DNA of 39,971 nucleotides, taken from assembly GCF_001939115.1 (NCBI RefSeq), contig NZ_MQTZ01000029.1:41559-81529 (forward strand), in the 5' to 3' direction. The position numbers and the translations under genes are program-made. This DNA comes from Leptolyngbya sp. 'hensonii' (GTDB lineage Bacteria; Cyanobacteriota; Cyanobacteriia; GCF-001939115). Under the pieces are notes generated by a model. The model was not told the DNA's origin. It saw only the letters and a list, made by a program, of their open reading frames with translations, and made no database searches. Of the stretch, positions 23,549 through 25,274 are shown in pieces; positions within the stretch are counted from its first letter, which is position 1; each line of letters starts with the position of its first letter.

Positions 23549-23834
23549 AACGCCACATCTGGCTTACCTTCCATACTAATACCAATTCAAAAATTAACGG
23601 CTGTCGGGCAGTTGGATTCAAAATTGTCTCCCCCAGAGCAGTCAGGCAGATCTAATCCTCTTCCTACGAATCCACTCCTCCTGGAGGCAGGGGATTTTAA
23701 GGAATGAGAATTAAATAACACCGATAAACTCCTGATTGCCCTCACCCCCCTGCCCCCTCTCCCAGCGGGAGAGGGGGAGGGGTTGGGGGTTGGGGGTGAG
23801 GGCTGAAAATTTCGGAGTTATTAAATCCACGATC
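23549..23834. other. Intergenic region holding MITE copy B
   Basis: Upstream region of the Uma2 gene (minus strand) plus the palindromic element at 23709-23827. Nothing else is recognised. Confidence 0.5.
23709..23827. repeat. MITE-like palindromic element, copy B
   Basis: Terminal inverted repeats AATTAAATAACACCGA (23709-23724) and TCGGAGTTATTAAATC (23812-23827) match at 13 of 16 positions. The central hairpin is CCCCCTCTCCC (23753-23763), loop AGC, GGGAGAGGGGG (23767-23777), with outer GCCCTCACC arms. The inside is nearly identical, inverted, to copy A at 5.7 kb. The similarity continues through CCACGATCC to the stop codon of the cyclase gene (23835-23837), so it may serve as that gene's terminator. 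Confidence 0.8.
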
Positions 23835-25274
23835 CTAAGGAGTTTTACCAGTGAGCCAATAGGTGTTCACCAGCCCTTTTCCTTTGATCGAGATCGAACC
23901 TCTGGACGCAAACTGATACTGGGCTTTTAAGCGCTCATAGGTGGCTGCAGTTACCTGAATCTTACCGGGTTGCCCCTGGGATTCCATGCGGCTGGCCAGG
24001 TTCACCGTATCGCCCCAGAGGTCATAACTGAACTTCTTGGTGCCGATCACCCCGGCCACCACGGGACCACTGTTGATGCCCACCCGGATCGCAAAGGGTT
24101 GCCCATGGCTGGCACTGAACTGGGCAATCTTGTGTTGCATGGCCAGGGCCATATCTGCGATCGCCTCTGCATGGTCCCGGCGGGAATCGGGCAGTCCCCC
24201 CACCACCATGTATGCATCCCCAATGGTTTTGATCTTCTCCAGGCCGTACTGTTCCGTGAGGTCATCAAACACAGAAAAGATCTGGTTCAACAATCCGACC
24301 AGCTTTTTGGGAGAAATGTTGCTGGCCAGCTCCGTGAACCCGACCAGATCGGCAAAGAGGACGGTGACATCTTCAAAACCATCGGCAATGAAGGCTTCTC
24401 CATTGTGTTTGGTCGTGGCTCCAATTTGATATTGCTTCAATCTTTCCGCGATCGAGCGGGGCAAAATATTCAGCAACAGTTGCTCTGATTTTTCCTTTTC
24501 AAATTGCAGGGCATTTTCAGCCCGTTTGCGATCGCTGATATCCGTCTGTACCCCAACAAAATGGGTCAGTTTCCCGCTATTGTCATAAATGGGCGAAATA
24601 TGGAGTTCATTCCAGAACAGGGTACCGTCTTTGCGATAGTTGCGTAAAACAACGGTGCAATCTTCTCCACCTTTGATGGCAAAACGCAGTCGGTCGATTT
24701 CAGGCTGCTCCCGGTCTTGGCCCTGCAGAAACCGACAGTTGGTGCCCAGCACCTCTGAGATGGCATAGCCCGTCATGCGCTCAAACGCTGGATTGACATA
24801 GATCAGGGGCATATCGGGGAGTCGGGCATCCGCGATCACAATCCCGGCGTTACTGGCGGCAATGGCCTGATCCCGTAACTTGAGGGCCTCTTCAATCCCG
24901 GCCCGATAGGCTTGGCTGCCACTCCAGCTTTTTTCGCTGACATCCTGGGCGATGCCATAGCTGAGGCCATTCTGGTAAGGGGACAACCGCCAGGATAACC
25001 AGCGGTAGCTCCCATCTTTGCAGCGATACCGATTTTTATATTGCACCATCGACTGTAGGGACGGTTCTGCCTGACAGAGGACCTCCATCTCATCGGTTTC
25101 TGCCCGATCATTGGTGTGGACGAACTCCATCCAGGGGGTCGATCTCAACTCCTCCACAGACCAGCCCAAGACCCTCACCCAGGACTGATTTAAGTCCTGG
25201 AAGTAACCGTCCTGATTGCGGATACAGAGCAAATCAGGGGAAAGGTCAAAGAATGTCTTGAGCGGGGCTTCCAC
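23835..25274 (-). CDS. PAS-LOV class III adenylate cyclase (probably blue-light activated)
   Basis: 479 residues. PAS 1 spans about 5-115. A second PAS domain, about 135-250, has the LOV core GTNCRFLQG with the photo-adduct cysteine at C180, the flavin-contacting NYRKDGTLFWNELHISP segment, and a glutamine at 243 in FVGVQTDIS. A short coiled coil leads to a class III cyclase domain (about 295-475). Metal aspartates are D309 (FADLVGFT) and D353 (KTIGDAYM). Transition-state residues are N425 and R429 (TVNLASRM). The base-selecting residues are K349 and D418 (YDLWGD), the ATP pair, not the Glu/Cys of guanylate cyclases. So it should make cAMP in response to blue light; LOV-cyclases are known in cyanobacteria (Microcoleus mPAC). 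It is divergent from the UbiB-like gene, 149 bp apart. Confidence 0.9.
   Translation of the reverse strand: MEAPLKTFFDLSPDLLCIRNQDGYFQDLNQSWVRVLGWSVEELRSTPWMEFVHTNDRAETDEMEVLCQAEPSLQSMVQYKNRYRCKDGSYRWLSWRLSPYQNGLSYGIAQDVSEKSWSGSQAYRAGIEEALKLRDQAIAASNAGIVIADARLPDMPLIYVNPAFERMTGYAISEVLGTNCRFLQGQDREQPEIDRLRFAIKGGEDCTVVLRNYRKDGTLFWNELHISPIYDNSGKLTHFVGVQTDISDRKRAENALQFEKEKSEQLLLNILPRSIAERLKQYQIGATTKHNGEAFIADGFEDVTVLFADLVGFTELASNISPKKLVGLLNQIFSVFDDLTEQYGLEKIKTIGDAYMVVGGLPDSRRDHAEAIADMALAMQHKIAQFSASHGQPFAIRVGINSGPVVAGVIGTKKFSYDLWGDTVNLASRMESQGQPGKIQVTAATYERLKAQYQFASRGSISIKGKGLVNTYWLTGKTP

Follow-up and report, generated by a model that had tools for sequence, protein, structure and literature searches.

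A probable LOV-type photoactivated adenylate cyclase encoded in the genome of Leptolyngbya sp. 'hensonii'

The cyanobacterium Leptolyngbya sp. 'hensonii' carries a gene for a 479-amino-acid protein that is most probably a soluble, homodimeric adenylate cyclase activated by blue light, of the same type as mPAC; we put the probability of this reading at roughly 0.86. An earlier note on this DNA had proposed a photo-activated adenylate cyclase, and at the level of sequence the proposal is supported by the residues, the domain architecture and the protein family. The protein consists of an N-terminal PAS domain (N-PAS), a LOV domain, a coupling segment and a class III cyclase homology domain (CHD). 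Through this gene, blue light might act directly on cAMP in a cyanobacterium whose genome has no BLUF match. All coordinates refer to the window, which is the whole stretch of 39,971 nucleotides that was analysed.

Gene, reading frame and predicted structure

23835..25274, minus strand: PAS-LOV-adenylate cyclase gene, 479 aa, GTG start (open reading frame list, residue check, Pfam)

The same frame, uninterrupted over 484 codons, was recovered in the genome search. Inspection of the open reading frame found no ATG available at its start; GTG is the plausible start codon, and its position is matched in the nearest relative, L109. In a comparison of the gene with seven relatives, differences amount to 18–33% at codon positions 1 and 2 and to 57–63% at position 3. 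The first two positions are thus conserved far beyond the third, which is the pattern expected of a protein under selection. Pfam finds Guanylate_cyc at residues 299-475 (4e-68) and two PAS stretches. The gene is not a chance match, since its LOV part matches solved proteins at E ~1e-39 and its cyclase part at E ~2e-78, the latter to solved adenylate cyclases that include mammalian AC5, AC8 and AC9 and bacterial enzymes.

One neighbouring gene, about 290 bases off on the same strand, encodes a Uma2-family protein, and the other, divergently oriented, an ABC1/UbiB-like kinase; neither is tied to light or cAMP, and an operon is therefore not claimed. A promoter scan at the gene gave 0 sites, where 1.4 would be expected by chance. 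Directly downstream of the gene, at 23738-23803, lies a palindromic repeat, the core of which (CCCTCTCCC-N-GGGAGAGGG) has 94 copies genome-wide, with 0 for the reversed-pattern control.

An AlphaFold2 model of a single chain (m87cd36b1edaa), built from a 44-row alignment, has a pLDDT of 88.6 and a pTM of 0.60, with low confidence at residues 115-120 and 286-291. It places, in order, a PAS domain (~12-111), a helix (121-140), the LOV domain (144-245), two further helices (247-270 and 273-285) and the cyclase (296-477). The modelled catalytic domain matches 5o5l with a Z score of 29.6 and an rmsd of 2.4 over 220 residues. The VIA and Foldseek lists say little about the N-terminal half because they are filled by catalytic-domain matches, and this half was identified from sequence matches and not from fold matches.

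The sensor half

24927..25250, minus strand: N-terminal PAS, residues 9-116 (Pfam PAS_3/PAS_4, PDB sequence match 8px4, model pLDDT mostly ~90, family alignment)
24855..24914, minus strand: linker helix before the LOV core, residues 121-140 (AlphaFold2 model)
24525..24854, minus strand: LOV core, residues 141-250 (PDB LOV matches 7r5n, 7yx0 and 6hmj; residue conservation)
24735..24737, minus strand: codon of the photoactive Cys180 (residue check; Cys in 29/29 relatives reaching the column)

Judged by its residues and its closest matches, the second PAS stretch is a LOV domain. In a PDB sequence search, residues 126-261 match the solved proteins 7r5n (E 1.4e-39) and 7yx0 (E 1.6e-38), which are listed as sensory box/regulatory proteins and which we take to be LOV photoreceptors; phototropin, blue-light photoreceptor and aureochrome chains stand in the same match list. 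The LOV signature GTNCRFLQG, which the earlier note had described as intact, is found exactly at residues 177-185 and is the canonical motif, with C180 as the adduct-type cysteine. The set of residues for LOV photochemistry is complete (N179-C180-R181, Q184, N212, N222 and Q243), and N212, N222 and Q243 align with the flavin-contact Asn, Asn and Gln of LOV structures. N179, C180, R181 and Q184 are kept in all 29 relatives that reach the motif (one further row ends before it), N212 and Q243 in 30 of 30, and N222 in 29 of 30. The one exception is N222H in L165, where the Asn of FWN is replaced by His and the photocycle may be altered. L165 and L149 are two PAS-LOV cyclases within one genome, G552.

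The N-PAS has no Cys in the motif equivalent to that of LOV. Its best PDB sequence match is 8px4, the PAS of a diguanylate cyclase (1.8e-12), and three others are weak. The earlier note had described an extra N-terminal PAS domain: the domain is indeed there, but it is not extra, being standard across the aligned PAS-LOV cyclases. It is found in these, at 49-66% identity in the full-length ones, and is thus not peculiar to the present protein. A putative second input through it could therefore concern the whole family of PAS-LOV cyclases and not this member alone. Among 23 PAS-LOV cyclases, invariant positions number 43/110 in LOV, 57/183 in the CHD, 9/35 in the transducing element, 19/108 in the N-PAS and 0/10 in an insert described below, so that the N-PAS appears as a regular but less constrained part than LOV. 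These numbers bear on whether the N-PAS could be the main input, receiving a metabolite, oxygen or redox signal, with LOV acting as a redox sensor or modulator. The N-PAS is retained in every aligned PAS-LOV cyclase whose N-terminal end is complete, it has invariant positions of its own, and the genome contains several LOV-free PAS cyclases; against this, LOV is the most conserved part, its photoactive Cys is kept in every relative that reaches it, and the receiver-LOV cyclases do entirely without an N-PAS. We consider such a division of roles quite improbable, and blue light sensed by LOV is the preferred input.

The catalytic half

23841..24389, minus strand: class III cyclase homology domain, residues 296-478 (Pfam PF00211; PDB sequence and fold matches)
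24228..24230, minus strand: codon of the substrate-selecting Lys349 (aligned to AC5: Lys of EKIKTIG, second catalytic domain; Lys in 30/30 relatives)
24021..24023, minus strand: codon of the substrate-selecting Asp418 (aligned to AC5: Asp of YDIWG; Asp in 30/30 relatives)

The catalytic motifs are FADLVG (307-312), GDAY (352-355) and YDLWGDTVNLASRM (417-430). The class III set is complete: the metal residues D309 and D353 and the transition-state residues N425 and R429, both kinds being mentioned in the earlier note, are present and are kept in 30 of 30 relatives. The ATP-selecting pair was likewise correctly placed at K349 and D418; aligned with mammalian AC5, it is the pair of an adenylate cyclase, and it is invariant in the same 30 relatives. 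Every key residue being intact, a dead cyclase or a pseudo-LOV protein was ruled out. K349 and D418 also argue against a guanylate cyclase. That the product should be cGMP instead of cAMP is in our estimate highly improbable: guanylate cyclases do occur among the fold matches, as they would for any class III cyclase, but the invariant Lys and Asp match the adenylate pair, and in a rhodopsin guanylate cyclase, going by the titles of structure entries, it was Glu and Cys that were mutated to alter specificity.

Family and distribution

Of the genome scan, the best 80 loci were retained. Among the best 90 open reading frames from 127 loci, the LOV Cys motif is present in seven (the window gene twice, L109, and L009 to L012) and absent from the remaining 83, one of which (L018) ends before the motif. 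At E <= 1e-105, the PAS-LOV-cyclase layout was found in 4 genomes of a 388-genome sample of the class, the own genome counted. A second sample of 388 genomes, from the order of G313, gave 24 matching proteins in 21 genomes; the two samples overlap, sharing G313 and G318. The order of the host and that of G008 are represented in the sample by one genome each. Full-length relatives of identical architecture are 57-66% identical to the 479-aa protein; for a set of seven relatives compared directly with it the values are 59-66%. Most relatives have 478-488 aa, and the protein shows the order PAS-LOV-CHD within ~480 aa. A plasmid search gave partial matches only, with a full-length relative in 0 of 19 records at 80% coverage.

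Other arrangements were seen as well. In L164 (1498-3321, minus strand) two LOV domains follow one another, giving a PAS-LOV-LOV-cyclase in which both LOV cysteine motifs are intact; no report of a tandem-LOV adenylate cyclase was found in a literature search that lay mostly outside subscription journals. Receiver-LOV-adenylate cyclases are encoded by L012, L166 (1489-2976, minus strand) and L167, in Coleofasciculus sp. S288, G493 and G425, genomes that also have a PAS-LOV cyclase. No such fusion was evident from titles in the same literature.

Coupling region and origin of the catalytic domain

24420..24536, minus strand: J-alpha helix and cyclase-transducing element, residues 247-285, LLLNILPRSIAERLK (model helices 247-270 and 273-285; invariant residues)
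24396..24425, minus strand: 10-residue insert between transducing element and catalytic domain, residues 284-293 (alignments; pLDDT <50 at 286-291)

The segment that couples sensor and cyclase is called the cyclase-transducing element. Within residues 247-285, which comprise this element and the J-alpha helix, L266, L267, N269, L271, P272, I275, L279 and K280 are unchanged in 23 of 23 PAS-LOV cyclases, and linker and transducing element together are 61-73% identical to those of most PAS-LOV cyclases. The insert that follows is predicted to be disordered. Among the LOV and PAS cyclases listed, only L109 has a counterpart to it, of 9 residues; the inserts of some other PAS cyclases differ from it in sequence.

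Sensor and catalytic domain appear to differ in their relationships. Residues 5-250 resemble PAS-LOV cyclases (56-70% mean identity), whereas residues 296-478 are slightly nearer to PAS cyclases (mean 66%, vs 61% to PAS-LOV cyclases). The LOV tree unites 23 of 23 PAS-LOV cyclases, including the 479-aa protein and L109 (99/96). The CHD tree sets 21 PAS-LOV cyclases apart from everything else, the 479-aa protein and L109 included (99/96), and the CHD of the 479-aa protein groups with PAS cyclases without the LOV cysteine. With FastTree, all LOV cyclases form one group when LOV and CHD are combined (0.949) but not with the CHD alone. Three AU tests were made on the CHD, with uncorrected p values, the last being picked after the tree was seen: a single PAS-LOV cyclase clade gave p 0.138, so that a common origin is not rejected, all LOV cyclases as one clade gave p 0.010, and the receiver-LOV cyclases together with the 21 PAS-LOV cyclases gave p 0.028. 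A separate origin of the catalytic domain appears better supported for the receiver-LOV cyclases than for the 479-aa protein, whose likeness to PAS cyclases over residues 296-478 may be explained as well by retained ancestral residues as by a domain swap. It may be suggested, tentatively and with more doubt than confidence, that a PAS-LOV sensor module was joined to different cyclase lineages, and that the 479-aa protein and L109 combine it with a general PAS-cyclase CHD and a new flexible coupling insert. If true, this would make them a separate variant of LOV cyclase in which dark activity, sign or response speed may differ from mPAC.

Because the insert lies in the signal path and the CHD falls outside the main clade of PAS-LOV cyclases in the tree, the coupling may be of another strength or sign. 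In the extreme case LOV would work and the coupling would not, leaving a cyclase that is constitutive or inhibited by light. The confinement of the apparently disordered insert to two proteins and the grouping of the CHD with cyclases lacking the LOV cysteine speak for this, but the pattern of the family persists in linker and transducing element, and the LOV residues are constrained here just as they are in other members. We hold it to be improbable, and activation by blue light stays the preferred reading.

Proposed function

The mechanism proposed here takes flavin binding, the dimer, the direction and magnitude of the response to light and the preference for ATP from what is known of LOV domains and class III cyclases; the sequence, its intact residues, their conservation and the domain folds were read directly. 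The FMN of the LOV domain would absorb blue light and form a reversible adduct with Cys180, upon which Gln243 would reorient. The signal would pass to the J-alpha helix and transducing element (247-285), presumably a coiled coil between two subunits, and the catalytic domains would shift so that ATP is enclosed in the composite active sites formed where they meet. D309 and D353 would hold the metals, K349 and D418 read the adenine, and N425 and R429 hold the transition state. The level of cAMP would climb for as long as the adduct lasts, its decay in the dark ending the rise.

In the cell, cAMP would probably act on regulators of the CRP family. Apart from NtcA (L137), at least three candidates are encoded in the genome, namely L132, L133 and L136, CRP-like proteins in which an HTH is also matched, for L136 below the Pfam cut-off. 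In all, the genome has 18 cNMP-binding domains, 24 PF00211 matches, with several LOV-free PAS cyclases among the cyclases, and four LOV motifs. The three other LOV proteins are a CHASE/PAS histidine kinase (L095), a receiver-PAS-HisKA_2 kinase (L096) and a GAF/PAS GGDEF-EAL protein (L097), the last of which is encoded on contig C58, close to genes for another cyclase and a cNMP-binding protein. In Synechocystis, according to a review, cAMP and motility both increase under blue light, and this depends on Cya1 (PMC4284465); by analogy, the gene described here might conceivably take part in motility control.

Comparison with known systems

Several kinds of cyclase share parts with the 479-aa protein. 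BLUF-type cyclases such as bPAC and OaPAC respond to blue light, use a flavin sensor and have a class III adenylate cyclase, as in the LOV type, but BLUF and LOV have unrelated folds and different photochemistry. A BLUF-type cyclase was ruled out, as Pfam finds no BLUF in the protein and the host genome has no match to it. The PAS-type class III cyclases of cyanobacteria have the same transducing element and CHD and are up to 72% identical over residues 252-478 (insert excluded), but their sensor is an ordinary PAS without NCRFLQ, unlike the LOV domain here. In the receiver-LOV-cyclases the LOV domain is 67-73% identical to that of the 479-aa protein and the output domain is the same, but a receiver replaces the N-PAS and the catalytic domain comes from another branch.

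The closest comparison is with mPAC of Microcoleus (now Coleofasciculus) chthonoplastes PCC 7420, which, as reportedly described by Raffelberg et al. in 2013, is the characterised prototype of a LOV-type photoactivated adenylate cyclase. We take its length to be 483 aa and, judging from this length, its domain order to be PAS-LOV-CHD; the length would fit that of most relatives of the 479-aa protein. The following sources state that the LOV cyclase of M. chthonoplastes forms more cAMP under blue light in vitro (PMC4284465), that mPAC is LOV-type with a light activation of ~30-fold (table in PMC9614035), that in oocyte extract it reaches 1.55 per min in the dark and 43.3 per min in the light (PMC8522238), that its lifetime is of the order of 10-14 s (PMC4569695), and that it has been used and works in Dictyostelium (PMC11829771) and works in oocytes (PMC8522238), with a high dark activity (PMC11829771, PMC8522238). 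The remark in the earlier note that few LOV-type cyclases have been characterised holds in so far as mPAC was the only characterised natural one found in the literature searched, but the kind as such is already known. About 25 further LOV cyclase sequences offer natural variants for optogenetics, the 479-aa protein being one from an isolated lineage and with a changed linker, and the set allows a test of how the LOV signal passes through the transducing element into the cyclase. The Coleofasciculus relative L009 is 64% identical to the 479-aa protein and has no 10-residue insert. As described in the literature, mPAC resembles the 479-aa protein in that both join LOV with an adenylate cyclase and come from filamentous cyanobacteria, and by its sequence the 479-aa protein adds a member to the known mPAC-like LOV cyclases, from a genome that stands alone in its order.
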